Shown one piece after another: positions 5,753-30,568 of a stretch of DNA of 30,568 nucleotides. Numbering within the stretch: position 1 is the stretch's first letter; each line of letters starts with the position of its first letter. This DNA comes from a virus. The position numbers and the translations under genes are program-made. The stretch is from IMG/VR virus record IMGVR_UViG_3300044798_000087, positions 1 through 30,568 of that record. One strand, written 5' to 3'. Below the pieces are notes generated by a model that worked only from the letters and a program-made list of their open reading frames with translations, had not been told where the DNA came from and made no database searches.

Positions 5753-5959
5753 ATGAGTGAGCCAAATGTGAGAATCGATGCACCAGAAATCAGGAATCCG
5801 CGCCGGCCCATTATTCCACGGGCGGAACGAGCCAGAAGGTCGTGGTCATGGTGGATCCAGGCAAGCGCCTTAGAGGGCTGGGACAGACTACCAGAGTTCG
5901 AGGCATTCCAAAAAGCAGGGTTTAGCCTCCTGAAAGCCATCGACAAAAGAGTGAAATAA
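5753..5959 (+). CDS. Hypothetical protein, 68 aa
   Basis: ATG immediately after the previous stop, so coupled translation is likely. Basic N-terminal half (RNPRRPIIPRAERARRS) followed by a Trp-rich helix (WSWWIQASALEGWDRLPEFEAFQK). Could be a small nucleic-acid- or membrane-surface-binding protein; not recognised. It is followed 16 bases later by an HNH nuclease gene. Confidence 0.6.
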   Translation: MSEPNVRIDAPEIRNPRRPIIPRAERARRSWSWWIQASALEGWDRLPEFEAFQKAGFSLLKAIDKRVK

Positions 5960-5975
5960 TGGGGCCGGAGGTTAC

Positions 5976-11624: not shown

Positions 11625-11834
11625 GTGGCCGAAGACACGGTCGAACGGGCAATTGCAGACTTGAAGGAACTGATGCGGGAAGCCGAAGAGAACGGCCTGA
11701 TGCTGCTGGCACGCCAACTGTCTAGAATTATTGAGTCGATAGACTCTCTTATCTCCGCCGTCCATGCCAAAGGCGTGGCAGAGGAGAGGGAGCGTTGGAC
11801 TAAACAAGAGGCGATGAAAGATGAGCGCAGATGA
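11625..11834 (+). CDS. Hypothetical helical protein, 69 aa
   Basis: GTG at 11625 preceded by GAGGGGGTG, one base after the previous stop. Nearly all amphipathic helix (VERAIADLKELMREAEENG, then LARQLSRIIESIDSLISAV), probably a coiled coil. The last 14 bases overlap the HNH-like gene downstream. Confidence 0.65.
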   Translation: MAEDTVERAIADLKELMREAEENGLMLLARQLSRIIESIDSLISAVHAKGVAEERERWTKQEAMKDERR

Positions 11835-12273
11835 CAAGGCAAGGAGTTCGGCCTATGACAAGGAGTACTACGCTACCCATCTCAATGAAAGAAAGGCGGT
11901 TAATCGAGCATGGAAAGCGGCACATCCAGAAATGGTGAAGGCGAAGATGGAACCCTATCGCGCCGAGCATCGAGAACAAGCAGCACTCGCTAGAAGAGAA
12001 TGGAAAGTGGCTCATCCAGATAGCATCAAGATACGGAGAAAGAAGGATAACGCTGCGCGTCGTGTGTTGGGTTTTGTTCCACTTAATCAACCATTTGACG
12101 GTTGTGAGGGGCATCATATTGACCAAGAACGCGTTGTCTACATTCCTAAGGAACTCCACAAAAGCGTTCGGCACAGCGTATGGACGGGGCAGAATATGGA
12201 CAAGATTAATTCCGTTGCTTTGCAATGGGCGTTTGTTCCCGCCTCCGTCCTCGCCCCAAAGGAGAAGCCATGA
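11821..12273 (+). CDS. HNH-like homing nuclease, family copy 2 (basic helical N-terminus, foreign tail)
   Basis: 150 aa. Residues 1-80 are a basic helical region with repeated (R)xWKxAHPxxxK units (NRAWKAAHPEMVKAK, then REWKVAHPDSIKIR). Residues 84-137 are the shared domain: GFVPLNQPFDGCEGHHID, VVYIPKELHKSVRH, WTGQNMDKINSVALQWAF. After that the family's usual KQEV or TEDW ending is replaced by VPASVLAPKEKP, which resembles the end of the small gene at 8134-8403. The nuclease therefore seems fused to the tail of an invaded small gene. Stop overlaps the next ATG (ATGA). Confidence 0.78.
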   Translation: MSADDKARSSAYDKEYYATHLNERKAVNRAWKAAHPEMVKAKMEPYRAEHREQAALARREWKVAHPDSIKIRRKKDNAARRVLGFVPLNQPFDGCEGHHIDQERVVYIPKELHKSVRHSVWTGQNMDKINSVALQWAFVPASVLAPKEKP

Positions 12274-13530: not shown

Positions 13531-13706
13531 AGTTTCAGGCAATCATCGCAGCGACAAGTAGCGCTTTCAAGGTGGGTGATGAAGGTGCTTCAAGGTTATC
13601 CCTTGATATCCCCGTAACAGAAATGGCATCTATTTTGCGCCTCATTGCATTTGGACGCGGGAAAGAATTAAGCATTACCGTGGATATTGAGGGAACAGAA
13701 GACTAG
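13521..13706 (+). CDS. Hypothetical protein, 61 aa
   Basis: ATG preceded by GGGAGGTCTC. Beta-rich, small: QIKFQAIIAATSSAFKVGDE, then RLSLDIPVTEMASILRLIA and LSITVDIEGTED. The pattern strand-helix-strand suggests a compact alpha/beta fold. Stop TAG lies two bases before the HNH-like gene's GTG. No family recognised. Confidence 0.65.
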   Translation: MQIKFQAIIAATSSAFKVGDEGASRLSLDIPVTEMASILRLIAFGRGKELSITVDIEGTED

Positions 13707-13707
13707 C

Positions 13708-14400
13708 GTGAACTACAAGAAAAAAATCTGTTTGATTTGTGGTTGTGAATACCAACCAACAGACGGCAAGCAGAAATGGTGTTTGGTTTGTGGGCCAGAG
13801 GCGCACAGAAATGTACAGAAGAAGCGCAACAAGGAATACTATGCAAAGAACAGAGACGCGATTTTAGTTAGCAGCCACATCTACGGAATGGAACATAGGG
13901 CCGAGAAAAAAGAGCACAATGCAGCGTATCTCGCCGCCAACAGAAAGGAACTGAATGAGGCGTGCCGTAAATATCGTCTTGCCAATCTAGACAAGGAAGT
14001 AGAACATCACCATCGCTGGAATCTCGAACATCCAGGGGCGAGTGCGGTTACCGCCAAACAATGGAGAGAGGAGAATCCAGGGCGAGCAAATGAGCTACAC
14101 AAAAACTGGAAACTAGAACACCCCGAAGAGGCACGACAGATGGCCTTAAGGCATGCCCATAAGCGCCGCAATCTTGGCTTTGTTTTGCTCAATGTTCCAT
14201 TCGTCGGTTGTGAGGGCCACCACGTAGACAATGAGCAAGTCATCAATATGCCCAAAGAGCTACACCGAAGCATTTACCATAGGCAAGATACCGGACAGGG
14301 CATGGCAAAGATAAATGCGATCGCCTACAACTTCTTGTTCAGGCAGGAAGTAGAAACTGCAATGATTGACATCGAGGAGGCGCACAATGGAGAAACGTGA
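13708..14400 (+). CDS. HNH-like homing nuclease, family copy 3 (zinc ribbon N-terminus)
   Basis: 230 aa from a GTG directly after the previous gene; the ribosome site is weak, so coupling is likely. Residues 6-30 are a zinc ribbon (ICLICGCEYQPTDGKQKWC and a following C). A long basic helical region follows (about 35-150) with repeats of AANRKELNE and WRxENPGRA type, similar to NUMOD-like spacers. The shared domain at about 155-225 has GFVLLNVPFVGCEGHHVD, VINMPKELHRSIYH, GMAKINAIAYNFLFRQEV. Ending of the KQEV type, as copies 1 and 7. The last 14 bases overlap the next gene. Confidence 0.82.
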   Translation: MNYKKKICLICGCEYQPTDGKQKWCLVCGPEAHRNVQKKRNKEYYAKNRDAILVSSHIYGMEHRAEKKEHNAAYLAANRKELNEACRKYRLANLDKEVEHHHRWNLEHPGASAVTAKQWREENPGRANELHKNWKLEHPEEARQMALRHAHKRRNLGFVLLNVPFVGCEGHHVDNEQVINMPKELHRSIYHRQDTGQGMAKINAIAYNFLFRQEVETAMIDIEEAHNGET

Positions 14401-15797: not shown

Positions 15798-16589
15798 TCA
15801 TTCACTAACGTGAACATCATGCCGGAGACCGTCGAGTCTTATTCTAGGGCATCCGGTGTGGCTTGGGGGTAAGCCAGCCTGTTCGGCATAACTCCCATCC
15901 CAGTTCAGGAAGGAACCGGAATCGATGAGAAATACCTTGTCGGCCTTCAGCATGGACTTCCCCTCTTTCGTGGCATGGAGGCGGTAGCGGTCAATCGGAG
16001 CGGCAGCTTCAAGATGATTGTGTGCCCCGACCAGAAAGTCGGCTCCCTCGAACAGGTCGGTCAACTTGTACACCCTGTTCAGTTTTCCCCCAGGAGTAGC
16101 ACCCCCGCCCGTCGTATGATGGAAGTAGCCAGTGTAACTTATCCTTGAGCCTTCCCATTCCTTCTCACCGTTCTTGCGGGCGTTATGTCCTACCCCGATA
16201 TGGAGAACTGCGGAGAAACCACAGTACGGAATCGACAAGTCATCGCACAAGTCCTCAATCAAGTCGCATCCAGCAAAACGCACAAGGCGTTGCTCGTGAT
16301 TCCCGACAACCGCCCCAACGATAAGGTCTTTCACGGGCCGCAATCTATCCCGTAAGTAGTGTTTTGCCTCTCGCAAGTTCATGTTGCAGTCAAACAAGTC
16401 TGATACCCCGTCTTTCGTCACCGTATCGTAGAGATCGCCCATAAGGAAAATATATGCTTTTTCACTTTTTGCCCAATCCAAATATCCCTCAAACTTCTTC
16501 AAGTCAGATTGAGCCGAGCCACAATGCACGTCTCCTATTGGCAGAAGATAGACAAAGTTTCTCTTATCGGTTATCTCGATAAGGCGCAT
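15798..16589 (-). CDS. Calcineurin-like metallophosphoesterase, 263 aa
   Basis: Metal-dependent phosphoesterase; substrate unknown (phage members include nucleases and nucleotide phosphatases). The dimetal motifs are complete: GDVH (Asp20, His22), GDLYD (Asp52), GNHE (96-99), a His-containing FHHTTGGG strand, and GAHNH near residue 195. The ATG overlaps the upstream HNH stop (TAATG). It is the last gene of a three-gene minus-strand operon with its own promoter at 17.6 kb and converges on the candidate RNA gene. No terminator follows it. Confidence 0.85.
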   Translation of the reverse strand: MRLIEITDKRNFVYLLPIGDVHCGSAQSDLKKFEGYLDWAKSEKAYIFLMGDLYDTVTKDGVSDLFDCNMNLREAKHYLRDRLRPVKDLIVGAVVGNHEQRLVRFAGCDLIEDLCDDLSIPYCGFSAVLHIGVGHNARKNGEKEWEGSRISYTGYFHHTTGGGATPGGKLNRVYKLTDLFEGADFLVGAHNHLEAAAPIDRYRLHATKEGKSMLKADKVFLIDSGSFLNWDGSYAEQAGLPPSHTGCPRIRLDGLRHDVHVSE

Positions 16590-17227
16590 TACGTCCAATC
16601 CTCCGTTAGGTATGCGCCAGCCAAGAGATTGATTTCAGTCATATTCCTCCCCGTCCACACGTTGTGTGAAACGCTTTTGTGCATCTCTTTGGGAATGTAA
16701 ATAACGTCAGTCAGATTGATGTGGTGTCCCTCGCAACCGTCAAACGGGGAATTGAGGGGGTTAAAGCCCAAAACTCTCCGCTTGGCTTTCATCTTTCTCA
16801 TGGCAAGACTGTCATTTTCGGGATGTTCCGTATGCCACTTCTCATTAGTTGCGCGGGCCCTTTCGGTCGTTCCGTACATCCTCATCCTTTCGGGATTCGC
16901 TATTGCCCACGCCTTGCCCGTGACGGCTTTTTGTTCTCGCGTGACTAACGGGGCGCACCCTGCGCAATATTTTTGTGCCGTTCCCGTCGGAAAGTATTGT
17001 CTCCCACATCGGGAACACGTCCTCGACACGGTCCCAATTGGTCGATGGTGATAACAGCGATCACGGTTGGCCGCTACCTTGTCGGGATTAGCGGTTCGCC
17101 AAATCTTCGATGTTACCTTGGCGATTTCCTTTCGGGCGAGCGGGGCGCAAGCGGGACAATACCAACTACGCGACCCACTGGGAACATATTCTATCCCGCA
17201 CCTACGACAGTGTTTTGCCCGATACAT
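16589..17227 (-). CDS. HNH-like homing nuclease, family copy 4 (two zinc ribbons)
   Basis: 212 aa. ATG at 17227 preceded by GGGGAGGAAGA, both lying inside the upstream gene's last 26 bases. Two zinc ribbons in tandem: HCRRCGIEYVPSGSRSWYC (about residues 6-24) and CSRCGRQYFPTGTAQKYC (about 64-81), each followed by a fourth Cys. Shared domain near the C-terminus: GFNPLNSPFDGCEGHHIN, VIYIPKEMHKSVSH, WTGRNMTEINLLAGAYLTEDW. This is the TEDW-ending subtype with copies 5 and 6. It separates the metallopeptidase-like gene from the phosphoesterase gene. Confidence 0.82.
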   Translation of the reverse strand: MYRAKHCRRCGIEYVPSGSRSWYCPACAPLARKEIAKVTSKIWRTANPDKVAANRDRCYHHRPIGTVSRTCSRCGRQYFPTGTAQKYCAGCAPLVTREQKAVTGKAWAIANPERMRMYGTTERARATNEKWHTEHPENDSLAMRKMKAKRRVLGFNPLNSPFDGCEGHHINLTDVIYIPKEMHKSVSHNVWTGRNMTEINLLAGAYLTEDWT

Positions 17228-17531
17228 TCTTCCTCCCCTTCCGTTCGACAAGAGCCTTAACCATGACCTCTGCAACGAGATATACGTTCGTCTCGTCATC
17301 GAGGCAATCAGTCAAATACTGAAGGCAATGGAATAATTCGTGGGCTATCGCTACTCGTGTCTTGTACTGCGACATTTTCTCTTGAATCATAACTTCAATT
17401 TGCTGATACCCCCCACGCTTCTTCGGCCAGAGAGTTAGTCCTTCGGGTATTTCCCCGACAGGTTCCGCTTTGTCAGCATATGGTTTGAGTAGAGCCTTCG
17501 GAACCTTCTCAACCTTGATGACAACGGTCAT
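17202..17531 (-). CDS. HExxH metallopeptidase-like protein, 109 aa
   Basis: Residues 62-71 (IAHELFHCLQ) hold the zinc-protease signature HExxH at 64-68; Asp/Glu at 78-80 and Glu88 in the next helix are candidates for the third ligand. Small phage proteins of this type are common and mostly uncharacterised. The start ATG overlaps the stop of a 7-codon upstream frame. The last residues (KGRKNVSGKTLS) are encoded by the DNA that also holds the ribosome site and first codons of the HNH gene, so the original C-terminus may have been replaced at insertion. Confidence 0.65.
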   Translation of the reverse strand: MTVVIKVEKVPKALLKPYADKAEPVGEIPEGLTLWPKKRGGYQQIEVMIQEKMSQYKTRVAIAHELFHCLQYLTDCLDDETNVYLVAEVMVKALVERKGRKNVSGKTLS

Positions 17532-17606: not shown

Positions 17607-20600
17607 CTAGGGTCGCTTGGGAATGATAAGATGCGGCCGTACTGTGGATGGTGTTGGACGAGATGTCGGGCCGGAAGGGGGCGCGGTTTGAGCCGGGAAT
17701 AACCACTTCTTCGCTTCGAGGTATCCCTTGACGGGTGCGGCAGTAACGTATCCCCCAAGTTCAATGATGAATCCCGCAACTGCCTTCCAGTTTCCCTTTG
17801 ATGCGGACGAGAAGATGTTTTTGATAATCTCGAAGGGTTGGAGGGCGACGGGTGCACTACCCCACGTCATTCCCTGCAATCCCTGGGTGATGTATCTTCC
17901 AAGGATAGGAATCATGTTCTCGATGGCCGAAAGCGCCACATATCCCCACCAGGTATCGTACCACTTACCCGCATTGGGATTCTTCTCGCGTCCGCGACTT
18001 ATCCTATCGGCAAGGCGCATGACGAGGGCGACCCCGACGATGGTGAACAGGAGTTGGCGGAAGGCGCGATGTGCTGGAACCTTTCCCTTTGCTGCACCTC
18101 TCCCGAGATAGTTCAGATAATCCGCCGCCGCAGTCGCTTCTCCCGTAAAGGCCGTAAAGATGCGGGCAATCTCAGACTGCTTGTAGACATCCGATTTATC
18201 TTCCACGAGTTCGGAGGCATGGGTGGCGAGAATCGCACGCTGTACCTCGAAGGCGTTTTCCTCAATCGTTCGTTCGGGATGTTCGCGTGTCGCCCGTGCC
18301 AGACCTCCGATTGCTGCCGAAGCAATATCTGTTGTATCGGCAATGCGGAAGGTGACATTCTCCCAATCTCTGAGTTTGGAAACGCCCCTCTGCCAGTTCT
18401 TTTCTAGGTCTGACATCGTGACCTCTGCCTCAGTACGAATGGGGTCAAGAACACGGTCATAGAGAACGGGCATGAACTCCTTGATAACTCGCATTGCCGC
18501 ATTCGGATTACTGATGAGTTTTACTGTTCCGTATAGCATCGTTTCTGGCCCGAACTGACCCATAGAGGTCATATAAGATGCACCCGCCGTCACCATCTTG
18601 GATGCACGGAGTGCCAGAATGGAGCAGGATACCGCGAGTCTGCTGTTGCGGATGACTCGCTCAAGTTGTCTCCATTGTGGAGGAACCGCTTGAAGTCCGA
18701 GTGCGCCCGCTGGATTACCTAAGTCTTTGGCATACTGGAGAACAGACCGGTATCCCTCCCGCCCCATGCGGATTGTGAACGCGTCCTTGACGTGAACGTC
18801 CTTGACGATTTGCAAGATGTCTTGCGATACTCCTTCTCGATGAATGAAGTCCGTCGTCTGGCCGATGTAAGAAATAAATGTGGCAATGGGGTCTTCCCTT
18901 AAGGGAATAGCCGAACGGGGAACACGGGACTTTTCCCAGTCCTTCGTTGTCGAGTTCTGTACCCAACCCCTATCAATAACATCTTGATGTAGGAGTTCAG
19001 TTGCGCCCCTCCCTTCTGGTTGACCCACAGTATCCCCCCGTTCGAGTTCGATGTGGACGTAGTTCTCCAACTCTGGCAAGGACTCTCCGTTATGGCTATA
19101 CTCATAGGCCGCATTGACCGCAGGCCAAGAACCGCCATAATCGTCTATCATCATATTGGCGACATCCACTTCTTCGGGGGTCATACTCTGAATGGCCTGT
19201 GCGATTGTCTCTTCGGTATACTTGTTTCCTGCCATCAGGTGATACAGGTTGTCCTGCCGCAGGGAGTTGATTGCCACAAGGAGGACTTGCGCCTGGGTCA
19301 CAACTTGACCATTCGGAAGTGTCCTTTCCACGTTATAGGTCTTCCCTGTAATCCCGTCTTTTGCGATGCGTTCCGTAATACGTTCCTGAACCGTGCGAAC
19401 AGAACTACGGACGGCGTTCTCCATCTTGATTGCATTGTCGTAAAGAGTAGTCGTGATTGTTCCGTCCTTGAACCCATCGAGTTCTTGGAACTGCCAGACC
19501 TTTCTTCCTTTCTCATCGGCAATCCACTGAATATCTTCCTTGAGTTGATTGGAGCGAACACGAACGTGAGACTCTTCCCCGACATTGGGAATACTCGAAG
19601 GTTTGACGCTCGTCAATATCTGTGCGGTAATGGCATCTGCCGTCTTATTGAGATATTCTGTCCGAGCGAGTTTCATGGCGTCGCGTTTCTCTATCCCAAG
19701 ATCACGGAGTGCCCGTACCTTTGCTTCAAGTTGCCGAAGGTCGGGAAGCGAAATCTCCTGTTCGGAAGGAACGGCCGGACGCTGGTTGACGTGTAATCCA
19801 ACCCTCTCTGCCAACATCGGAAATTGGGTAGAGGATTCTTTCTCGAATAACTTCTCTGTACCTTTCACGCCAGCAGTTGCAGTCTGAACCGCCCTTCGTT
19901 CCTCGGCGGTCTTGATGGAGACTCCCTTGATACTCGCAATCAACCTTGCCCGCTCAGCAATATCCTTTGCCTTGCGTTCGGCCTCGGCACGCATCCATTC
20001 CTGCGTCTTCAAGAGGTTCTTTGCCCGCTCCTTGAGTGCCGCGATAATTCGTTCTGCCTGTACCTTCTTCTGGGCAAGGGCAAGGTCTTCGCCAAACTTC
20101 TGACCCTCCATTGCCTTCTTCGCCTTTGCCATCAATTCCTGACCGTTCTTCTCAATCTGTTCCTGCGTCTGTTCTTTCAGGGCCGTGAACTTCTCGGCAG
20201 TAATCCGTTTGGCCACCGTAGATGCCTTTCCTCTCGCCATCTGTTCTGCCAAGACCTTATCGTTGTATTTCTTGACGGCATCTGCCACCATTGCCTTGCG
20301 TTTGTCCAATGACGGCATATTCTCAATTTTGTGATATGCCTTCCAATGCAACGCATTTGTTGGAACCTTTGCGGCAACCATCGCTTGATAGAACTCGTCT
20401 ATTATCCGTTTGGTAATCCCACCCGACTTCTTGGCGGCAGTAACCCTGTCAAGGGCCGCGGTGATGCGACTGATAGTATTATTATCCGTTGGGATGGTAT
20501 TACTCGTTCCCTGCGTGGCAGAGGGTTCAACGGCGGTATTCAGGGGAGCAACTTCCTGACCCGTCAATCCTGTCTGACCTGCGGGAAGGGGGGCGATATT

Positions 20601-22607
20601 GGTGATGGAGGGTTGATTTGCCAATCCCTTATCTATGTGATACGATGCAACAACTGAACCGACCGCATCCCTCTTTCCCCAACGAAGACTCACATCAATG
20701 CCATTGTTGTCTTCTATCCTTGTGACAACAATTCCCGCCCTCGCAGGAATAATGCTTGCATCTGCCGATTCGTTGGCAATTCCCAAGATGTCTTGTTCTG
20801 ATGGAACCTTCTTGGTAATGACAACGTCGATGGGTTCCCCATACTTGGAGGGACTTGCAAACCTTCCCACTTTCGGAACGATGGGTTGAACTACCGCACC
20901 TTTCTCGGTAGATGGGGTAATGGGTATTGTCGTTTCTACAACAGGTGCGGCTTGTGCGGGAACCCCTCGCACAGTCGGAGTTTCAATGGGGGGAACGGAA
21001 CCCGCAGGGATTTCCGACTTCGAGATTCCATATAGTTTCCCTTGTCCATCTTGCACAACGATTCCATTATGGTTCACTCCGTCTCTCGTGGTGAAGGCAA
21101 CTTCGTGAACAGTAGTCCTTAATCCTGTCGTGGGGGATCTCTCACCCCAATCGGATTCCTGAACTGACGGTGCACTGATATTCGGAGAAACGATAGGGGC
21201 GGGAAGTGCTAATTGGGCGGGAATATGAAGATGTACCTTCTGCGTTGGCCCCGCAGGAATGATGTTCCCCACAGGAACCGCCTTCGGGATTTCCGCAAGG
21301 GCAGTGGAAGGTTTCGCTACCGTGACGGGTTGACCGACGGTAGTAGCCTTGGTTGTTGCCTTACCAACGGGAACGGCAAGACGTTTCCAACTACCCGTAC
21401 TTATCTCTGAACGCAAGTTCTGGAAGAATATCGTTGCATCTTTCTCCACACTATCCGCGATTGCTTGTGTCGGATGTTGTGCCGAAAGAAGTGGAATCAA
21501 GATGTTAGCGAGAGCAGGCGGGGGTTGGGGTAATGCGTCTCCAATCGCCAACAAAAGTTGAGTCATGTTCCCCACACGAGTTCCCGATTCGGTTAATGTA
21601 GAATTGACAAATGACGTTATCGCATCCGTTGATATGGCTGGAACATTGGGTGCGGTGGTGCTGGCGCGAAGACCCGCAATCATGTTATTGATTTCATCGC
21701 CAGTCATATCCCAACCGGCGCGGGTAACAAGTCCACGGATCTCATCATCGGAGAACTGTTTCATTGCGGAACTGACGTTTTGCTGGATATACCCCAATGT
21801 CTGGTTCGCATTACGAGAAGACGCAAGGGCGGCTTGTATGTCTTCCGTGTACTGATATCCCGATGTGGACTGTACCAACTGTTCTGTCTTTTGTTGACCC
21901 AATTCTTGACCCAGTTGCAGGTCATGTTGGCTCAATTCCGAAACCGCCTTGCGAGTTCCGAGAGAGTTCGCGACCACGGCAGAGAGAAACATGACAATAC
22001 CGGTGAGTATGCCGCCAACACTATAGAACATCTTGTTGATAGTATCGTTCTTAACGGAGGGGTCATTCCACGGGGCAAGATATACCTTATTGCCACCAGC
22101 GTCCGTTGTTCTTTCCCAGTTAAGATGTGGGTTTTCATCCCCAAATGGAAGGTTTCTCAACGGTACGACAGGTTGACCCTTAGAGTTCTTGGGAACATTG
22201 GGGCCAGGAGACATAAACCAGTCCGTAAACTTTGCAAGGGGGACTTCCCCAAACTTCGGAGTACGGACAGAAGTTGCAGAAAGTGCCGTCATCTTTGTTT
22301 CTGGAATTGATGGCGTTACAACCCCCCTCGTCGCAGTTCGATTCTGTAACCCCGTCTGATAAGGTTTATCATTGAGGGCAGTATGCCACATGGACTGTAC
22401 CGCACTGCGGTTTGCCGTTTCCGTCGGAGTAAGTGACCCAATCGGGGGTGGTGTATAGGTACTGACTGGTGCCGTTCCCGCATCATTCGCCTTGGAGACT
22501 ACGGTACTTCCCGTAAAGGGAGTAACGGTGAATCTCGGTATGGTCTTGACCGTAGTCTTGCCCCCGACTGATTTGGTGATAGCCTTTCCAATCGTGAACT
22601 TAGGCAT
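17607..22607 (-). CDS. Giant internal virion / DNA-ejection protein, 1666 aa
   Basis: Called from size, position after tail genes and composition; the closest concept is the large ejection protein of podoviruses or phage polyvalent proteins. Residues 1-190 are Thr/Pro-rich. One membrane helix is at about 193-216 (GGILTGIVMFLSAVVANSLG). Ala/Lys/Glu-rich coiled coil spans roughly 740-960. The C-terminal 400 residues are helical with REHPERTIEENAFEVQRAIL, IARIFTAFTGEATAAADYL, hydrophobic segments (RQLLFTIVGVALVMRLADRI and GYVALSAIENMIPILGRYI) and a Pro/Ser-rich end; this resembles C-terminal domains of phage polyvalent proteins. No lytic transglycosylase or protease motif was spotted. ATG with GGGAAC... 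spacing, 8 bases after the previous gene. Confidence 0.72.
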   Translation of the reverse strand: MPKFTIGKAITKSVGGKTTVKTIPRFTVTPFTGSTVVSKANDAGTAPVSTYTPPPIGSLTPTETANRSAVQSMWHTALNDKPYQTGLQNRTATRGVVTPSIPETKMTALSATSVRTPKFGEVPLAKFTDWFMSPGPNVPKNSKGQPVVPLRNLPFGDENPHLNWERTTDAGGNKVYLAPWNDPSVKNDTINKMFYSVGGILTGIVMFLSAVVANSLGTRKAVSELSQHDLQLGQELGQQKTEQLVQSTSGYQYTEDIQAALASSRNANQTLGYIQQNVSSAMKQFSDDEIRGLVTRAGWDMTGDEINNMIAGLRASTTAPNVPAISTDAITSFVNSTLTESGTRVGNMTQLLLAIGDALPQPPPALANILIPLLSAQHPTQAIADSVEKDATIFFQNLRSEISTGSWKRLAVPVGKATTKATTVGQPVTVAKPSTALAEIPKAVPVGNIIPAGPTQKVHLHIPAQLALPAPIVSPNISAPSVQESDWGERSPTTGLRTTVHEVAFTTRDGVNHNGIVVQDGQGKLYGISKSEIPAGSVPPIETPTVRGVPAQAAPVVETTIPITPSTEKGAVVQPIVPKVGRFASPSKYGEPIDVVITKKVPSEQDILGIANESADASIIPARAGIVVTRIEDNNGIDVSLRWGKRDAVGSVVASYHIDKGLANQPSITNIAPLPAGQTGLTGQEVAPLNTAVEPSATQGTSNTIPTDNNTISRITAALDRVTAAKKSGGITKRIIDEFYQAMVAAKVPTNALHWKAYHKIENMPSLDKRKAMVADAVKKYNDKVLAEQMARGKASTVAKRITAEKFTALKEQTQEQIEKNGQELMAKAKKAMEGQKFGEDLALAQKKVQAERIIAALKERAKNLLKTQEWMRAEAERKAKDIAERARLIASIKGVSIKTAEERRAVQTATAGVKGTEKLFEKESSTQFPMLAERVGLHVNQRPAVPSEQEISLPDLRQLEAKVRALRDLGIEKRDAMKLARTEYLNKTADAITAQILTSVKPSSIPNVGEESHVRVRSNQLKEDIQWIADEKGRKVWQFQELDGFKDGTITTTLYDNAIKMENAVRSSVRTVQERITERIAKDGITGKTYNVERTLPNGQVVTQAQVLLVAINSLRQDNLYHLMAGNKYTEETIAQAIQSMTPEEVDVANMMIDDYGGSWPAVNAAYEYSHNGESLPELENYVHIELERGDTVGQPEGRGATELLHQDVIDRGWVQNSTTKDWEKSRVPRSAIPLREDPIATFISYIGQTTDFIHREGVSQDILQIVKDVHVKDAFTIRMGREGYRSVLQYAKDLGNPAGALGLQAVPPQWRQLERVIRNSRLAVSCSILALRASKMVTAGASYMTSMGQFGPETMLYGTVKLISNPNAAMRVIKEFMPVLYDRVLDPIRTEAEVTMSDLEKNWQRGVSKLRDWENVTFRIADTTDIASAAIGGLARATREHPERTIEENAFEVQRAILATHASELVEDKSDVYKQSEIARIFTAFTGEATAAADYLNYLGRGAAKGKVPAHRAFRQLLFTIVGVALVMRLADRISRGREKNPNAGKWYDTWWGYVALSAIENMIPILGRYITQGLQGMTWGSAPVALQPFEIIKNIFSSASKGNWKAVAGFIIELGGYVTAAPVKGYLEAKKWLFPAQTAPPSGPTSRPTPSTVRPHLIIPKRP

Positions 22608-22615
22608 GGGAACTC

Positions 22616-25084
22616 CTATGGAAGGGGCGGAGGTTGTGCTGGCGGTTGTGTTCCGTAGTAACTGATGAAGATTTTCTCCAATGCAGCGATCTCGTTAGTA
22701 GAGAAATCATATCCATTCGCACCCAACTTCTTTGTGCTGTTCTCGTTGATGAAACTCTGCATCGCATCGAACCATGAAGTCGAAGCATCTTTCAAGTCCT
22801 TGTTCCCGTAGATGATAGCGAGGGATGCCTGACGAACGGGGTCTGAAACGGAATGGATAATCTTTTCTGCTTCCGTAAAATCAACGCCCATAAGTCCAGG
22901 GAGATGATAGATGGTAGTTCCCTTCGGTGCCCCCGTTGAAGGAGCAGGAACCCAACCAGCGGATGCCTTATCATAATAGAAATCCATTCCACCCATAAAG
23001 TCGGCGAGGTTCGTATCAGAAATTGCCCCCGTACCCGCCATCAGGCGAAGGTTTGCCATGTTGACTGAAGCGGAATCTGCGCCTCCATTGGACATGATGG
23101 ATAGGTCGGGTTTCTGGTCATAGACAGGGGTTCCATCGGGATTCGTTGTACCTGTCCCACCCGCTGCACCTTGCGCCTCCATGACTCCATTGTGCCGTTT
23201 CGTTTCGGCGGCAACGGCAGCGGATGTATCTCCGTTCATCTTCCCGATTTTCTCCATTTCGAGGTTATGCCGGTTAGTTTCTGCCTCGGCAGGAGTCATC
23301 ATATGCGTAAGTGTCTTCTTCACAGGATCATAGTAGATTCCATTTTCCATCCATTTTGCAATATCGTCTGTGGTCGGAACCCTCCCTCCCGTAATGTTCC
23401 CGTTCGCATCAATGGGCCAGCCAGCCGCAATCAGGTCATTTCTATCTTTTTGTGAGAGAACCTGAGTAAGAGAGACCGAACCATCGGCATTTTTACCAAC
23501 CACAATGCCCTTATCCAGCGCATTGACGCTCATTGTAATCCACCACTTCGCATCTTCGCTGGCCGCAGTAGCAACCGCAGCCGCCTCTCCGCGTGCACCC
23601 GTCTCGAAGGTAACCTTGGCGGTTCCAGCTTCACCCGTAAGAGAGGTAATCTCGGTGGTTGCCATGTTGTAGATGTCCTGCAATGTCTTATTCTGAGGGT
23701 CTAAGAAACTTGCCCTGAGTGCCGCGAGTTGAGTGGTCTTCGCAACATCAAGGTCATTTGCGAAGGTCAACTTAGAGGCCGTCAGGATTGCCATCTGGTT
23801 TCCGAGTGCCACCAGGTCTGCCCCGGTCGTTGCCGTGGCAGAGGCGACTTGGTTCATGCCAGATGCGGCGTTCTGTCCATAGAGATAACCGAGCATCCCC
23901 GTAAACGCCATGCCCGAGGCTGCGAGAGATTGTCTCGACCTCCAGTCGGCAGTGGCGATTTCCCGTTTGATGGTATTGAGTTGGAACGTCAGACCAGCCT
24001 TTTCAGATTCCTGTTTTCCAGCAAGACCTGCAACCTGAGCATCCACCGCCGCATTATTTTGATGAATCTGCGCCGTGATGGAGGCCGTAAGAACATCCAC
24101 CTGAGTGAGGAATGCGGGGTTCTTCTCGATAGACGCGGGGTCTGCAAGTGTCAAGTTGGTTGTGGAAAGTGTCTGGACATCGTTCCAAATCTTGAAGTTC
24201 TTGCCGTACCAGTCCAACTGCGCCTGTGTTGCCCCACCCTCTACGGACGTATCAAATATCTTCTTGCCGCTTGCATCGGTCTTGAAGGGAAGGTTGACGC
24301 CTTGTTCAAGCGCCCATCCCAAGAAGTCATTATTCTTGAAGTATTGGGATTGGATGAACTGGCCGTAGACACTATTGACGTCGACTCCAGTTATATTCTG
24401 TTTGACGATAGAGGTTCCGCCTGCCGCTGCTTGATAGCCAGGGGGAACGACATCGCCAACTTTCCAGTTGGTAATCGTTGCATCTGCGCCCGCGCCCGTA
24501 GGCGCAACTGCCCCCATACCACTGACCGGTGCCTGTGCCGGGGTTCCAACTCCAGGGGCTCTCCCCGTTGTATTTATTGCCGTCTTTGCGAGAGGATTGG
24601 CCGTTCCTACGGAAGTCGGTGATGCTAGTTGGGGAACGACCCCGCCAGAGACAATTCCCGCCGCAGGACTTGTACCACCCATCACTGGAGTTGCAGTACT
24701 CGTGATGGTAGAAGAAGCACTTGTGGGTTGGGCGGCGCTCTGTTTCTGCCATACGGGAAGGTTCCTTGTCAGGTATTCCCCCAAGGCCCGGTCGAATGCA
24801 CTCCTTGTGGAACCAGCCTGCGTTGTTCCTAGAATATCGGCGGCATTCCCAAGGACATTCCAGTCAATCTTTCCCCCGCCAGGAGTATTTGCTAACGCCA
24901 CACCCGCCCCGTAATCGGCATCGATATTCGTCATGCCGAACTGGGTTTTGAGAATATTCCGAAGTGAGTTTGCCTTTGTTTGATAGAGAAGACGTGCATC
25001 CGAACCTATGGGTGCGTTTTCTCCCTGGAGTTTCAGGGCCTTGAGGGCCATCAAATAAAAGTCGGCATTATTCGTTTGTGCCAT
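22616..25084 (-). CDS. Internal virion protein, 822 aa
   Basis: Second large structural protein, immediately upstream of the giant one and probably acting with it. ATG preceded by GAGGAA. Residues 1-115 are helical (DFYLMALKALKLQGENAP). About 115-215 is a long Ala/Thr/Gly/Pro linker. A central region has alternating helices, including a hydrophobic Ala/Gly-rich helix with GMLGYLYGQNAASGM near 420-440. The C-terminal part has Gly/Asn/Asp-rich segments and ends in a poly-Pro tail (PPAQPPPLP). Tape-measure protein is the alternative; the short membrane-like helix and pairing with a 1666-aa protein favour ejection protein. Confidence 0.65.
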   Translation of the reverse strand: MAQTNNADFYLMALKALKLQGENAPIGSDARLLYQTKANSLRNILKTQFGMTNIDADYGAGVALANTPGGGKIDWNVLGNAADILGTTQAGSTRSAFDRALGEYLTRNLPVWQKQSAAQPTSASSTITSTATPVMGGTSPAAGIVSGGVVPQLASPTSVGTANPLAKTAINTTGRAPGVGTPAQAPVSGMGAVAPTGAGADATITNWKVGDVVPPGYQAAAGGTSIVKQNITGVDVNSVYGQFIQSQYFKNNDFLGWALEQGVNLPFKTDASGKKIFDTSVEGGATQAQLDWYGKNFKIWNDVQTLSTTNLTLADPASIEKNPAFLTQVDVLTASITAQIHQNNAAVDAQVAGLAGKQESEKAGLTFQLNTIKREIATADWRSRQSLAASGMAFTGMLGYLYGQNAASGMNQVASATATTGADLVALGNQMAILTASKLTFANDLDVAKTTQLAALRASFLDPQNKTLQDIYNMATTEITSLTGEAGTAKVTFETGARGEAAAVATAASEDAKWWITMSVNALDKGIVVGKNADGSVSLTQVLSQKDRNDLIAAGWPIDANGNITGGRVPTTDDIAKWMENGIYYDPVKKTLTHMMTPAEAETNRHNLEMEKIGKMNGDTSAAVAAETKRHNGVMEAQGAAGGTGTTNPDGTPVYDQKPDLSIMSNGGADSASVNMANLRLMAGTGAISDTNLADFMGGMDFYYDKASAGWVPAPSTGAPKGTTIYHLPGLMGVDFTEAEKIIHSVSDPVRQASLAIIYGNKDLKDASTSWFDAMQSFINENSTKKLGANGYDFSTNEIAALEKIFISYYGTQPPAQPPPLP

Positions 25085-25094
25085 AGTGTTCCTC

Positions 25095-25733
25095 CTACAT
25101 CCAGTCTTCGGTCAGAAACGCGCCAGCCAACTTATTAATCGCGTCCATACCCTTGCCTGTCCAGATATTATGATACACGCTCCGATGGAGTTCCCTCGGA
25201 ATATAAATAACATCGTTCTTGTTGATGTGGTGGGCGTCGGAGTCAACAAAGAAAGAGTTCAGAGGAACAAAACCCAAGGCCCTGCGCTTAGCAACCTTTC
25301 TGCTCCCGATGACTCTTGCCTTTTCGGGATTCTCCATAAACCACTTCTTGGCAGCAATAACGGCTTTTGCTCTGCGGCTCATACCATTCGCTTCTGCCAT
25401 TTCAGGGTTATCCCTTCGATACATCCTTACTGGTTTTCCCCCAGCATCTGCCCGCTTCCGATAGTACCCTCTTTCTTTTTCCAATAGCGCTTCCTTATGG
25501 TCACCCCGCCAATTTGCAATATACTTCTTGCGTTCTGGGCGTTGATTCCTTTCCCGCTCTTTCTGCCGAATGAGAACTGCGTTGTCAACAAGCCATTTCT
25601 CTTTGTCAAATTGGGCGTGTTCTTTCCGTCCATCGATTCGGCAGTCCGTACAATACCACTGATTCGGTCCAACGGGAAGGAACTCTTGTTTGCACCGAAC
25701 GCAAATCTTCTTCTTGTAATCCGGCTTTTTCAT
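25095..25733 (-). CDS. HNH-like homing nuclease, family copy 5 (zinc ribbon)
   Basis: 212 aa; ATG overlaps the upstream stop (ATGA). Zinc ribbon at residues 7-29 (ICVRCKQEFLPVGPNQWYC and a following C). Basic helical middle with KERERNQRPERKK and YRKRADAGGKP. Shared domain: GFVPLNSFFVDSDAHHIN, VIYIPRELHRSVYH, IWTGKGMDAINKLAGAFLTEDW. Unlike the others it has DAHH instead of EGHH. It stands between the 323-aa tail protein and the 822-aa protein; the stop is followed after 10 bases by the next ATG. Confidence 0.82.
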   Translation of the reverse strand: MKKPDYKKKICVRCKQEFLPVGPNQWYCTDCRIDGRKEHAQFDKEKWLVDNAVLIRQKERERNQRPERKKYIANWRGDHKEALLEKERGYYRKRADAGGKPVRMYRRDNPEMAEANGMSRRAKAVIAAKKWFMENPEKARVIGSRKVAKRRALGFVPLNSFFVDSDAHHINKNDVIYIPRELHRSVYHNIWTGKGMDAINKLAGAFLTEDWM

Positions 25734-26701
25734 ACGCCCATGTACCAGATTGCATTGGACTGAATTGGTTTGACTGCCGCCAATAATCGGTGTACCAATT
25801 TTAGGCTAGAATCCAGTACGACCCACCCACAAGTATTATACCCCGTGACACACATGATAAATTGCCCATTATACAACCTAGCGGGGGCAACCATCGTTCC
25901 CGTCCCCCATGAGGAATAGGCGGCAAGTGAAACTACGCCCGCACTAATCTCGGTTGTATAGTCCACGATTCCACTCCACGTTCTAGCCCCCGCATTTACC
26001 TGACCGAAATATCCGGGGGAATATCCATCAAGCAATATGCCCCAAATATAAGATGCGTCTACCGCAAACACACAACCCCAATGATTGGGGTAGACATTGA
26101 TGGTTCCCGTAACTTCGTTAGGGTCGCCACTAGAAAGCAGAACGATTCGTACCATGTTGTCCAATCCACGTGACTCAAAATAGTCAGTTCCATCGTTAGC
26201 CAGCATTAAACACTTTGCGGCAGCAACCTCGGCCGAAGTTGCATCGGTCTTGGAACAATCAGTCCCATACTTGCGCCACGGCCCATCGGTATCTGTCCTC
26301 GGGGTATAGAAATTACTTCCGTCACTGTATTGACACTTGAACTGTGAATCGAAAATATCAAGAGATGTCAGAGCCTCGTTACTTGAAACAACTGTCATTG
26401 TTGCGGTATTGATACAGGTCAGACCAAGATGATTGTTGTCACTTCCGACAGAACTCCATACAATCCACAAGTATCCGTTGCCAACAGAGATGTTTTGTGG
26501 GTACGCTGACGGACGATAGGCAGGAGAAAATGGCAACTCACAACTTGAAATCTCTAGGTATCCGCCTGTCTTTGGACGAACTAGGTAGAACTTACTATCT
26601 GTATGCTGAATGATGCCATATGGTTGCCCGTCCTGCCCCATGCCCGTCTGGACAAATGTGGCGGCCCCGAATTGATAGAACCGCTTGTCGGTATAACTCA
26701 C
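25730..26701 (-). CDS. Putative tail protein with beta-propeller-like strands, 323 aa
   Basis: GTG overlapping the stop of the displaced 3' end upstream (GTGA). All-beta appearance with many short W/Y/G-rich strands: RFYQFGAATFVQTG, GYLWIVWSSVGS, GCVFAVDASYIWGILLDGY, QFIMCVTGYNTCGWVVLD. Such strings are typical of tail or fibre proteins with propeller folds. Located in the structural block. No named family. Cys-rich for a virion protein (eight or more Cys), which is unusual. Confidence 0.6.
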   Translation of the reverse strand: MSYTDKRFYQFGAATFVQTGMGQDGQPYGIIQHTDSKFYLVRPKTGGYLEISSCELPFSPAYRPSAYPQNISVGNGYLWIVWSSVGSDNNHLGLTCINTATMTVVSSNEALTSLDIFDSQFKCQYSDGSNFYTPRTDTDGPWRKYGTDCSKTDATSAEVAAAKCLMLANDGTDYFESRGLDNMVRIVLLSSGDPNEVTGTINVYPNHWGCVFAVDASYIWGILLDGYSPGYFGQVNAGARTWSGIVDYTTEISAGVVSLAAYSSWGTGTMVAPARLYNGQFIMCVTGYNTCGWVVLDSSLKLVHRLLAAVKPIQSNAIWYMGV

Positions 26702-26760
26702 GCCGTTCTCACTTTCAGGTTAGACGTCCACATTCCCGTATAAAACTTCAAGTCGGAAAT
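26698..26760 (-). pseudogene. Displaced 3' end of the upstream tail gene (20 codons plus stop)
   Basis: Directly after the HNH stop codon the minus strand reads ISDLKFYTGMWTSNLKVRTA and a stop. The upstream 210-aa gene ends IADLKLYAGMFTQDMRIRTA: 11 of 20 identical, most others conservative, about 59% identical at DNA level. It has no start codon or ribosome site of its own. Its stop TGA overlaps the next gene's GTG, as a genuine gene end would. This is the old end of the target gene, cut off by the nuclease insertion, or what remains of a tandem paralogue. Confidence 0.75.
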
Positions 26761-27263
26761 CATGTCCAGTCCTCTGTCAAGTATGCACCAGCCAGCATAT
26801 TCATTTCCTCCATGTTCTTCCCCGTCCAGACATTATGGTAAAGACTCTTGTGCATCGCTTTTGGAATATAAATCACATCACTTTGGTTAATATGGTGACC
26901 CTCACTATTGGGAAATGGTGAGTTCAACGGATGAAACCCCAGGGAGCGGTGTTTAGATACTTGTTTCTTTCTCGAAAGCAATGCCTTTTCGGGATTGGCA
27001 ATTCTCCACGCCTCGACCTGTGCGTAGACCTTCTCTTTGTTGTTGACATAATACCGATGGCCATTTGCCGCCATGTTTTCTGGATGTTTAGAGAACCATC
27101 GATGGTTGAGTTCCATCGCCCTGTCGTGGTTCTTCGCCCGCCAATCTTTCGCATTATCTCTATGCGCCTCAATGCCACAATCCGCGCAATAACTTTGATG
27201 TCCGCTTGTGGGTTGATACTCTTTCCCGCATCTTTTGCAAAACTTCAGTTTCCACGCACGCAT
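26760..27263 (-). CDS. HNH-like homing nuclease, family copy 6 (zinc ribbon)
   Basis: 167 aa, the shortest zinc-ribbon copy. ATG at 27263, ten bases after the upstream stop, with AGGGG in between. Zinc ribbon at residues 8-30 (FCKRCGKEYQPTSGHQSYC and a following C). Helical middle with ENMAANGHRYYVNNKEKVYA and WRIANPEKALL. Shared domain: GFHPLNSPFPNSEGHHIN, VIYIPKAMHKSLYH, WTGKNMEEMNMLAGAYLTEDW. Its stop codon shares one base with a leftover of the upstream gene's 3' end, so the insertion point can be placed almost to the base. Confidence 0.83.
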   Translation of the reverse strand: MRAWKLKFCKRCGKEYQPTSGHQSYCADCGIEAHRDNAKDWRAKNHDRAMELNHRWFSKHPENMAANGHRYYVNNKEKVYAQVEAWRIANPEKALLSRKKQVSKHRSLGFHPLNSPFPNSEGHHINQSDVIYIPKAMHKSLYHNVWTGKNMEEMNMLAGAYLTEDWT

Positions 27264-27273
27264 CGCGCTGCCC

Positions 27274-27906
27274 CTACGCCGTTCGGATACGCATATCTTG
27301 GGTAAACATCCCCGCATACAATTTGAGGTCTGCGATATATACAAAACTTAGCATATCAAACGCGTCCAGCGTTGCCGTCATCGTTGGTGCGACCCCACCC
27401 ATCCAATAAATCTTTGGGTAGAGGGCGTTGGCAAAGGAATCCATGAAGGTAATCGTTGCATCCCCCGCCGCCTTCCTCTGCCATACCAAGAGACAACAGG
27501 TCTGGTCTAGGGGATTCAGGAGATAGATGTTCCGATTCTCCGTCAGATAGAGATACTGTCTGCATCCCCTTGACCAATCTACCGAAATAGGTACGGTTGT
27601 CTTGATGGTTCCGCCCGCGTTATAGGGAGTACAATCAACCCACTTCACGACGGTCTGGCCAACGGATACCTGGACTCCTTGCTGGACGGAGGAACCAGCG
27701 GTCGTCAAGTTCTGGAACTCAGCAGAGGTTGGCAGGTGGGAACCGAGAAACCCACCACCATTTAACTTAGCAAGAACGGGGTTGGGGATTGCTGCCTGTT
27801 CCTGCTGAAAGATTTGATAGGCCGCCCGTTCTTCGGGGGTCTTGATAAGTGCGGGGTTTGTTCCCCATATCCACTTTCCATCTGGCCCCAACAGTGTACT
27901 AGGCAT
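27274..27906 (-). CDS. Structural (tail) protein, 210 aa, with replaced 3' end
   Basis: ATG overlaps the upstream 505-aa gene by 8 bases. N-terminal part is extended (GPDGKWIWGTNPALIKTPEE), then beta-rich (GVQVSVGQTVVKWVDCTPYN, RQYLYLTENRNIYLLNPLDQ, CCLLVWQRKAAGDATITFMD, YPKIYWMGGVAPTMTATLDA). Looks like a small jelly-roll or fibre-tip protein; unassigned. Its last 20 codons (27274-27336) have a diverged counterpart beyond the HNH gene, indicating that this gene was the insertion target. Confidence 0.65.
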   Translation of the reverse strand: MPSTLLGPDGKWIWGTNPALIKTPEERAAYQIFQQEQAAIPNPVLAKLNGGGFLGSHLPTSAEFQNLTTAGSSVQQGVQVSVGQTVVKWVDCTPYNAGGTIKTTVPISVDWSRGCRQYLYLTENRNIYLLNPLDQTCCLLVWQRKAAGDATITFMDSFANALYPKIYWMGGVAPTMTATLDAFDMLSFVYIADLKLYAGMFTQDMRIRTA

Positions 27907-29416
27907 CTACGTCTCCCGCGCTTCGGGTACTGAACTCGCAACCTACGTCACAAATCTGCGCCGTTCCCGTTCCACTGACCGTGAAGTACACGCCTTCGCC
28001 AATCTCGGCATGACACTCCAAGTCCTTTTGGAACAATCCCCCGCCCGTTCCCACCATATCAAGGGTCGTCGTTGCCCTCGTGACGAGGGTATCCGCCGAA
28101 CCCGCAACCCCATCCCGACAGACATATTGGCTGACGGTGACGGGAGAGGTCGCGGCTTGCCCCACATACCGAATCTTGAAGTGGACGAAACGGGAATATG
28201 CGTCAAAACTTGGGGTATACGTCTTCGTTGTAAATGACCACGCTAGGGGTATTCCTGTGGCCGTAGGCGAAAGGTAGAACACTTTTCCTAGTGTAGTACC
28301 AATCCAGAGCCTATCGCCCCGTACGCCGATAGAACGGTCTTCCCCGCCCATGAGGGCAGTCGGGGTATCGATGTTCGGAGATGCGGCAGAAGTCATCTGA
28401 ACATCGTACTTCTCCCATGCCCCCGAATCTCTATCAATGGCATAAATGTAGTTCACTTCCGAACCTGTTGGGAGTGCCGCGGTAGAAACAAGGAACCAGA
28501 GGCGGTTGTCGTATTCTCCCGTGAACCAGCAGAGTGCGGCGGGCAGATTCAACTTGTCGCTGATAACCTGCGGCCTACTTCCAGAGAAGGCGTAGAACTT
28601 GTTATTGCCCACCCAGTAGGCCATCTGCCCATCGGTATAGATTCGGAAAGGTGCGCCCGTCCCGAACCGTGGCATGGCGGCTCCGAGATAGACGGGTCGT
28701 TGTGTTCCATCAATGAAGGTGTTCTGTGAATAAATCCCGTCATCGCAGAAGATGTACAGAGCGCCGTTCATCTTCAAGAGGTATCGGATCTGTTGCTGCA
28801 TCTTTGCCATGAAGAGGGTATTTGCCAGCGTCAAAGTTCCATCTACGGGATCGGCGGGGCCACGCCACGTCGCCTCCAAACTAGGGTCGGTGACATCAGA
28901 CCCGCGCAATATCTGGGCGAGGTTGAACCAGATACGTCCCTCCTGTTCGCAGACAGTGGCACACATGTGGGTCTGGTCAAAATCCTGGTCGGCGGCAGTA
29001 ATGTTCGTCCCACCCGTCGCGGTTGACCACAGCCCTGTCGTATAGCGAACATAGTATCGTACCGCAGTATCGGCGGGGCTATCGGCAATCTGCGCCGTAT
29101 TCGTGTCTACGGTGTAGACCGTTCCTTGGTTGGACTCGTTGTACATCGAGCCGTTGCGGTTGATGAACAGGTTGGCCCATGACCCCATGATGGAACGTAT
29201 TGAGCCGGAGAGTCCGGCGGCGTAGCAATCCGTATTCTCTACCGGCTTCGTGACCGAATGAAGAACCCCGTAATGGTCGATATGCAGGTTGGAGATGGCG
29301 TGAAGGGCGTTATCGGGTATCAGCGCCCCGTCAATGCTATCAAACAGGCCGCCCAGAAACCCGCCGCCCCAGATCGTATACGATTTTGTAGTGTTTATCT
29401 CACGATTTAGTGGCAT
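27899..29416 (-). CDS. Putative tail/neck protein, beta-propeller-like, 505 aa
   Basis: ATG overlaps the HNH stop by 17 bases. The opening GGGFLGGLFDSIDGALIPDN followed by AISNLHIDHYGVL resembles the N-termini of podovirus neck or stabilisation proteins (P22 gp10-like, T7 tail-tubular-B-like), where a DG...N...D..G.L segment starts a propeller. Repeated blade-like strands follow: NGALYIFCDDGIYSQN, GQMAYWVGNNKFYAFSG, NRLWFLVSTAAL, DRLWIGTTLGKVFYLSP. The C-terminal 120 residues look like a separate beta domain. The family call is by resemblance and may be wrong in detail; structural role is well supported. Confidence 0.65.
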   Translation of the reverse strand: MPLNREINTTKSYTIWGGGFLGGLFDSIDGALIPDNALHAISNLHIDHYGVLHSVTKPVENTDCYAAGLSGSIRSIMGSWANLFINRNGSMYNESNQGTVYTVDTNTAQIADSPADTAVRYYVRYTTGLWSTATGGTNITAADQDFDQTHMCATVCEQEGRIWFNLAQILRGSDVTDPSLEATWRGPADPVDGTLTLANTLFMAKMQQQIRYLLKMNGALYIFCDDGIYSQNTFIDGTQRPVYLGAAMPRFGTGAPFRIYTDGQMAYWVGNNKFYAFSGSRPQVISDKLNLPAALCWFTGEYDNRLWFLVSTAALPTGSEVNYIYAIDRDSGAWEKYDVQMTSAASPNIDTPTALMGGEDRSIGVRGDRLWIGTTLGKVFYLSPTATGIPLAWSFTTKTYTPSFDAYSRFVHFKIRYVGQAATSPVTVSQYVCRDGVAGSADTLVTRATTTLDMVGTGGGLFQKDLECHAEIGEGVYFTVSGTGTAQICDVGCEFSTRSAGDVDA

Positions 29417-30083
29417 CTTGTGCCTCCAAGGCCGCCTCTACCTCTTGTTTGAACAAGAAGTTGTAGGCTACGGCGTTTATCTTTGCCATTCCGCGACCGT
29501 CTGACTGACGATGCCAAACACTACGGTGTAATGCCTTCGGCATATAAATGATCTGTTCGCCATCAACGTGGTGGCCTTCGTACCCATCAACGGGTTGGTT
29601 AAGGGGGACAAAACCGAGAGAACGATGTTTAGCATTTGTCTTCTGTCTGCTCACTTGCATTCCACCGCGCCACCTATTGCTCAATGACCCCAACTTCCCC
29701 TTTTTAGCCATCGACATCTTTTCTCTAGTTTCTGCGGAGGGATTAGTTTTGGCCACAGATATTTTCACTTTCGTTTCTTCAGTACAGTGGGTACCGAGTC
29801 TCTTCGTATTCCCCATGTCAGCGGCAGACATTCTTGCCCGCATTTCAGTAGTACGAACTTTCCCCATATTTGCCCTAGATATCTTGGCTTTATGTTCGGA
29901 AGAAAGGGCGCGACCCTTATGCGCGGCAGACATCTTTTCCCTTGCTTCGGGGGATGGATTCTTCCCCGTATTTGCAGTACCAATCTTTGCTCTCGTTTCT
30001 GCAGATACAGGATGCCCCATCAACTTAGCAGATATGTTGGCTCGCTGCTCATCAGTTCTGTGCATCCCACTATTACTTCCCAT
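29400..30083 (-). CDS. HNH-like homing nuclease, family copy 7 (NUMOD3-like repeats)
   Basis: 227 aa, ATG two bases after the upstream stop. Residues 5-130 carry about six repeats of the (S)xETRAKIS type (SAETRAKIG, SPEAREKMS, SSEHKAKIS, TTEMRARMS, TEETKVKIS, SAETREKMS). Then the SNRWRGGMQV linker found also in copy 1, and the shared domain with GFVPLNQPVDGYEGHHVD (HH at 171-172), IIYMPKALHRSVWH, GMAKINAVAYNFLFKQEV. Closest to copy 1 in architecture although on the opposite strand 23 kb away, which suggests spread within the genome or from a shared pool. Confidence 0.83.
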   Translation of the reverse strand: MGSNSGMHRTDEQRANISAKLMGHPVSAETRAKIGTANTGKNPSPEAREKMSAAHKGRALSSEHKAKISRANMGKVRTTEMRARMSAADMGNTKRLGTHCTEETKVKISVAKTNPSAETREKMSMAKKGKLGSLSNRWRGGMQVSRQKTNAKHRSLGFVPLNQPVDGYEGHHVDGEQIIYMPKALHRSVWHRQSDGRGMAKINAVAYNFLFKQEVEAALEAQDATKS

Positions 30084-30084
30084 A

Positions 30085-30568
30085 TTAGGAAGGATACCAG
30101 GTATCGGTTATCGTGATTGGTTGTATACTCGGATTATATTCCCACCGTTGGCGAATCTCACTGAACAGGGCCAAGTGCTGTTGGGCAAGAGCAATTTGCT
30201 CGTCCTTGTAATAAAGCATGGCAACGGCATACTCTATCGCCCCCACGACATATTCCTCGGTCAAGTCCATCGTGATTCCATCTGCTGTCCAGAGGTCGGG
30301 AAGGCGCGTTCCCAAGAGAACGATAACGCCCGTCATATTCTCATCGAACGTCATTAGACCATCGTGGAACGAGAAGTCGTCACCCACCATAATAAGTGGG
30401 GCATCGGTGAACCTTCCCTCATAAATAACATAGGTTGAGGCGGCGGCAGGGTTGACCGTCCATGTAGCGACCGTCAAAACCGTGGCCGTATTGGACGTAA
30501 TCCTGCGGACTTGCCCCACACCGGTTCCTCCGGTGACGACAAGGTAATCTCCAAGATAGGTGTTGACC
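30085..30568 (-). CDS. Head-tail connector/structural protein, C-terminal part (runs off the right edge)
   Basis: The frame is open to the window edge, so the true start lies outside; the internal GTG at 30519 is not favoured. The stretch LVVTGGTGVGQVRRITSNTA followed by LTVATWTVNPAAASTYVIYE matches a recurrent phage structural motif (GTGxGQxRxI...W...PxxxStY.I) found in neck or connector and minor virion proteins. The second half has acidic helices (GITMDLTEEYVVGAIEYAVA, then HLALFSEIRQRWEYNP). Position before the tail genes fits a connector. Stop lies one base before the HNH-like gene. Confidence 0.65.
   Translation of the reverse strand, partial: VNTYLGDYLVVTGGTGVGQVRRITSNTATVLTVATWTVNPAAASTYVIYEGRFTDAPLIMVGDDFSFHDGLMTFDENMTGVIVLLGTRLPDLWTADGITMDLTEEYVVGAIEYAVAMLYYKDEQIALAQQHLALFSEIRQRWEYNPSIQPITITDTWYPS

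Follow-up and report, generated by a model that had tools for sequence, protein, structure and literature searches.

In an uncultured virus of bacteria we found a nuclease gene, HNH1, within the last 60 bases of the gene for a tail protein, gene A. We consider it rather likely that HNH1 is a free-standing and probably mobile nuclease gene located at the joint of two diverged alleles of this tail gene, with a functional substitute end upstream, a displaced old end downstream, and a putative relay from that old end to the following gene, C. The outcome is visible in the DNA: gene A keeps a full-length C-terminal domain with a recoded end, and the last strand of the other copy, which we call A', is left behind the nuclease. 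Throughout, the window is the whole stretch of DNA analyzed, 30,568 nt in length.

Two similar gene ends flank the HNH1 nuclease

On the minus strand, the genes around HNH1 run in the order adaptor, HNH4, B, A, HNH1, a 21-codon open reading frame (ORF), C, HNH2, D and E (Table 1). The 3' terminus of gene A (27906-27274, minus) reads ...SFVYIADLKLYAGMFTQDMRIRTA-TAG. HNH1 starts at the ATG at 27263, which is preceded by TAGGGG, and stops at the TGA at 26760-26762; a longer open frame around it, a 194-aa ORF from the TTG at 27344, is not a likely start. The TGA of HNH1 overlaps the ATG of the 21-codon ORF (ATGA), so that the leftover is an ORF with its own start codon. Its letters (26763-26698) are ATG ATT TCC GAC TTG ... 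GCG TGA, and this TGA in turn shares bases with the GTG at which gene C starts (GTGA, 26701). The leftover thereby keeps the 4-base overlap with C that would be expected of an uninterrupted pair, comparable to the TTGA of an empty site described below. A first-pass annotation of this DNA had proposed the same layout (the end of A, the nuclease, a second end, the GTG of the next gene), and the coordinates agree with it. It had placed the second end directly after the nuclease stop; the two do adjoin, but the leftover overlaps that stop by its ATG.

Table 1 Genes and gene ends of the window discussed in the text
Feature	Position	Strand	Remarks
Adaptor gene	30085-30519	minus	
HNH4 nuclease	29400-30083	minus	NUMOD3 repeats in N-terminus
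Gene B, 505 aa	27899..29416	minus	Upstream neighbor of A; in G006 its homologue stands before that of A
Gene A, 210-aa tail protein	27274..27906	minus	Tail-fibre C-terminal beta-domain at residues ~107-210, substitute end at 191-210
Substitute (in-use) 3' end of gene A, IADLKLYAGMFTQDMRIRTA and stop	27274..27336	minus	Last beta-strand, residues 196-205
HNH1, predicted HNH-type free-standing nuclease gene, 167 aa	26760..27263	minus	Zinc-ribbon N-terminus; C-terminal domain HH...YIP..H...H
Displaced 3' end of gene A, 21-codon ORF, MISDLKFYTGMWTSNLKVRTA and stop	26698..26763	minus	Own ATG (ATGA overlap); stop overlaps C (GTGA)
Gene C, 323 aa	25730..26701	minus	GTG start, no clear Shine-Dalgarno; missing from G006
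HNH2, second nuclease of the HNH1 family	25095..25733	minus	Far side of C; ends GAAGAC...TAGGAGG before D
Gene D, 822 aa	22616..25084	minus	In G006 its N-terminal homologue lies directly after the A homologue
Gene E	17607-22607	minus	
M109	17202-17531		Upstream gene at the HNH3 junction
HNH3, sister nuclease	16589..17227	minus	Comparison case; L178 has this gene overlap (TTGA) without an insertion
MPE	15798-16589		Downstream gene at the HNH3 junction
Further nucleases of the HNH1 family	5976-6539, 11821-12273, 13687-14400	plus	Among replication genes

The substitute and displaced ends share 11 of 20 residues and 37 of 63 bases (59%), confirming the figures that were first given for them (11/20 residues, DNA about 59%). 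Their BLOSUM62 score of 66 was reached by none of 10,000 shuffles (maximum 38), which rules out chance similarity, and no other ungapped match of 20 residues, over the six frames of the window, scored above 22. By codon position 1, 2 and 3, the two ends agree at 11, 17 and 8 of 20 sites, and the 11 identical residues are encoded by the same codon in only five cases. This pattern points to conservation at the protein level with synonymous sites scrambled. The two ends would thus have a long history of divergence under constraint on the protein, for which separate genomes are the simplest setting.

The repeated segment is the last strand of a tail-fibre domain

The C-terminal ~100 residues of A form a widespread viral tail-fibre domain. 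With a search pattern derived from A plus two proteins of marine phages, we detected homologues of the domain in >100 viral contigs; most of them end ...D[IV]xSF...YG...QNF. In a structural model of A the domain has pLDDT values mostly of about 75-92 and ends in a strand at residues 196-205; among viral structures, it matches tail-fibre-like proteins best (lowest E 8e-10, with an rmsd of 1.3 over 97 columns). PDB fold searches with the models of A and of the nuclease returned nothing informative. The repeated segment, residues 191-210, corresponds to a turn and the final strand. Since a conserved domain would lose its last strand without this segment, A would need a substitute end once its own was displaced.

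We scored the two ends against 95 distinct tails of this domain taken from other viruses. The maximum score was 25, against 66 for the two ends to each other, and the RTA terminus occurred in none of the 95. Thus, the two ends look like two alleles of one gene, and the leftover looks like an allele of A rather than a generic end of the domain. An unrelated virus (L043, 777-1720) has a tandem pair of genes that both end in the tail-fibre C-terminal domain.

HNH1 belongs to a many-copy nuclease family found at gene junctions

HNH1 to HNH4 have a common C-terminal domain (LGFxPLN...EGHHI...VIYIPxxLHxSxxHN...M..IN) and differ in their N-termini, which are zinc-ribbon-like in HNH1-3 and carry NUMOD3 repeats in HNH4 (Pfam E=3.8e-17); both are DNA-binding parts typical of homing nucleases. 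The columns HH, P, H, H and N are invariant in 17 members of the family, and the nuclease model has a strand-strand-helix order. The domain had no profile match in Pfam, PHROG or PDB, and fold searches gave no informative match. Its provisional assignment as an HNH-type nuclease rests on the conserved histidine pattern together with the modeled strand-strand-helix order.

The family is present in many copies at many gene junctions, with N-terminal DNA-binding parts swapped between members. The 30 kb of the window hold at least seven copies, related contigs carry several each, and a scan of genome contigs gave only two weak loci. A repeated gene end was found at one of 67 distinct junctions, that of HNH1 alone, so the repeat is exceptional and not the rule of the family. 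A candidate second case in L012 (score 56) proved to be a non-coding leader common to two tandem nuclease cassettes; this contig carries the two cassettes at 5524-6955, with a similar leader sequence before each.

Presence and absence of a nuclease at an overlapping gene pair can be seen for the sister HNH3. In L178 (2916-3230) the homologues of M109 and MPE overlap by TTGA with no nuclease between them, while the same junction holds a nuclease in the window, L012 and L013. The HNH3 insertion is clean: the downstream TTG start is replaced by the nuclease's own GAGGA...TAATG. Judged by its sequence, the A'/C pair, overlapping by GTGA, is a target of the same kind as M109/MPE; at A, the upstream end appears rebuilt instead.

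Some nuclease 3' ends carry a predicted ribosome site for the next gene

Twelve distinct nuclease members end in LTEDW[TM], and we compared these ends (window 26760-26780, 16589-16610 and 25095-25115; L011, L012, L013, L171 and others). In seven of them the next ATG overlaps the stop or lies directly against it, and the E-D codons are GAG-GAY in all seven, a spelling that places GAGGA 6 or 9 bases upstream of that ATG. In the other five the next gene starts at least 12 bases later, mostly with its own Shine-Dalgarno, and the codon is GAA in every case. Such a perfect split between GAG and GAA would arise by chance once in 792, or once in 252 with the three orthologues at the MPE junction counted once, for a pattern that was noticed post hoc. 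On the sequences compared, this codon choice at the LTEDWT end, with GAGGA only when the next start abuts the stop, is new. It may be a more general sign of parasites that carry a translation start for their neighbor.

HNH1 belongs to the GAG class, with GAGGA 6 nt before the ATG of the 21-codon ORF. As its 3' end spells a Shine-Dalgarno and the ORF abuts it, the displaced end has a predicted ribosome site. Our model suggests that the last codons of HNH1 (GAGGA-N6-ATG) would restart ribosomes on the leftover ORF, whose stop would then hand them to the GTG of C, keeping the old coupling from A' to C. Among the reading frames of the leftover, only that of the ORF itself reaches the TGA overlapping C. 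The displaced end thus probably couples translation into gene C and helps to switch it on. More generally, we tentatively hypothesize, at somewhat less than even chances, that the cassette enters essential overlapping gene pairs and repairs both neighbors, with a recoded 3' end for the upstream gene and its own ribosome site plus a start-stop relay for the downstream one.

A recombination model for the origin of the joint

We propose that recombination took place between two alleles, one in which A with its own end was followed by HNH1, and one that lacked the nuclease and had A' overlapping C by GTGA. HNH1 would cut A' near codon 190, and the left broken end could copy the end of A together with HNH1 by homology. 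The left join would fall in homologous A sequence, so that the new end is in frame with the body of the gene. The right join would lie at the 3' end of HNH1, at about codon 190 of A', most simply at the nuclease cut. Because there is no shared sequence beyond HNH1, this right end would be joined directly, and codons 191-210 of A' would stay behind the nuclease. The first-pass annotation held that a cassette entered about 60 bases before the gene end and carried its own diverged end. Two diverged ends do flank the nuclease and the leftover keeps its GTGA; the arrival of the end with the cassette stands as a candidate step.

It had also been argued that the recoded end gives the carrier self-immunity. 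This logic holds for a recognition site spanning the insertion point, but a site wholly within the old end would still be cut: the old end survives downstream, so only a spanning site would be lost. Recoding matters here because an identical substitute end would rebuild such a site.

A whole-record search identified one contig, G006 (IMGVR_UViG_3300025846_000002), in which both B (E=6e-49) and A (31% identity, E=4e-13) have homologues. Its gene order is B, A, a D-like gene and a giant E-like gene. There is only one A gene, and HNH1, the leftover, C and HNH2 are missing. Being distant (A only 31% identical) and without C, it cannot tell the old end from the new. In viral contigs and phage records, close relatives of A, B, C and E were absent or limited to domain-level matches, and a close nuclease-free relative with A' joined directly to C was not found. 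A degenerate scan for DLKxYxGM gave 24 stretches, none of them a relative of A.

An unlikely alternative, which would differ from our model mainly in direction, is that C, the last 20 codons of a foreign A' and HNH2 arrived together from another phage as a nuclease-bracketed island and were joined to a resident A-HNH1. The leftover would then be the incoming and not the resident end, and HNH1 would merely mark the boundary. Such an origin fits the bracketing of C by HNH1 and HNH2, its absence from G006, where D directly follows A, its GC3 of 0.48 against 0.53-0.64 in A, B, D and E, and the nucleases described at exchange boundaries and in HEG-islands of phages (PMC10448857). However, it takes a second event on top of the one non-homologous join at the nuclease end that our model also needs, and G006 is too distant to separate loss of C from gain.

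We regard as more improbable still that the leftover is the remnant of a tandem paralogue, that is, of a second complete gene with the same domain that once stood between A and C and of which the nuclease replaced all but the last 20 codons. Tandem genes with the domain do exist, at one of 88 loci (L043), but the leftover resembles A specifically (it scores 66 with A and no more than 25 with the 95 other tails, none of which has the RTA end). The single A gene of G006 also argues against an ancestral tandem paralogue. Two full tandem paralogues were the alternative named in the first-pass annotation; the distant G006 has one tail gene and no such paralogue, in line with its preferred reading.

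Finally, a self-splicing intron holding the nuclease, with the two ends as alternative C-termini from unspliced and spliced mRNA, is hardly credible. HNH genes often lie in introns and the two ends would yield equivalent proteins, but only 573-576 bases separate the insertion point from the leftover; once the 63 of the substitute end and the 504 of the nuclease gene are subtracted, about ten remain, too few for an intron core. An Rfam search of 25000-28000 gave no match at E up to 1 either, and on these two grounds we also reject a group I intron-encoded nuclease.

The HNH1 locus resembles mitochondrial mobile ORFs

The recombination model has a parallel outside phages. Integrative elements in tRNA genes had been offered as the comparison; mitochondrial mobile ORFs (mORFs) that carry gene ends are the closer match (PMC3630166). 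In atp6 of Glomus sp., the endonuclease follows a foreign C-terminal end, with the native end ~1 kb downstream; the two ends are 63.5% alike in DNA and 91% in protein (PMC3630166). Allomyces macrogynus atp6 was the first case of an mORF gene hybrid, and in Glomus sp. the hybrids comprise atp6, atp9, cox2 and nad3 (PMC3630166). As in mORFs, a coding duplication of the C-terminus of A flanks the endonuclease ORF on both sides: the functional, presumably foreign end is in frame with the resident gene, the displaced end is kept, and protein is conserved while DNA has diverged. In contrast to the donor and native ends of mORFs, those at HNH1 are putative. Unlike mORFs, HNH1 lies in a phage operon and not in a mitochondrion, the enzyme is of HNH type and not LAGLIDADG or GIY-YIG, and the displaced end has its own start codon and a predicted ribosome site and touches the next gene.

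Among phages, HNH1 resembles the T4-type free-standing homing endonucleases (seg, mob), with nuclease genes at junctions and translation overlap with neighbors (PMC2988022). Co-conversion of flanks and protection by sequence differences are described for T4 (PMC2988022). Among T4-like phages, the invasive insertions of mobE into nrdA and of mobA into gene 60 divide the interrupted gene into two polypeptides (PMC2988022); at HNH1, in contrast, the end of gene A is rebuilt and the other end is surplus. We found no report of a rebuilt gene end in phages in the open-access papers searched.

Taken with these comparisons, the core interpretation of the first-pass annotation appears the best available, and the HNH1 arrangement would be the phage form, with an HNH-type enzyme, of a phenomenon known from mitochondria. 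If so, the gene-hybrid trick of fungal mitochondrial mobile ORFs reaches phages, where free-standing nucleases commonly drive mosaicism. It would also account for a nuclease residing within an essential gene or an overlapping pair while the protein stays unsplit and the next gene unsilenced.

The locus further resembles the HEG-islands of phages (PMC10448857), in which two nuclease genes flank a cargo gene that differs between relatives: HNH1 and HNH2 bracket C, which varies in being missing from G006. Unlike in HEG-islands, a duplicated target-gene end marks one boundary at HNH1, and collaborative movement of C is putative. The segment at 25095-27263, in which C of lower GC3 lies between two nucleases of one family, is a possible HEG-island in itself.
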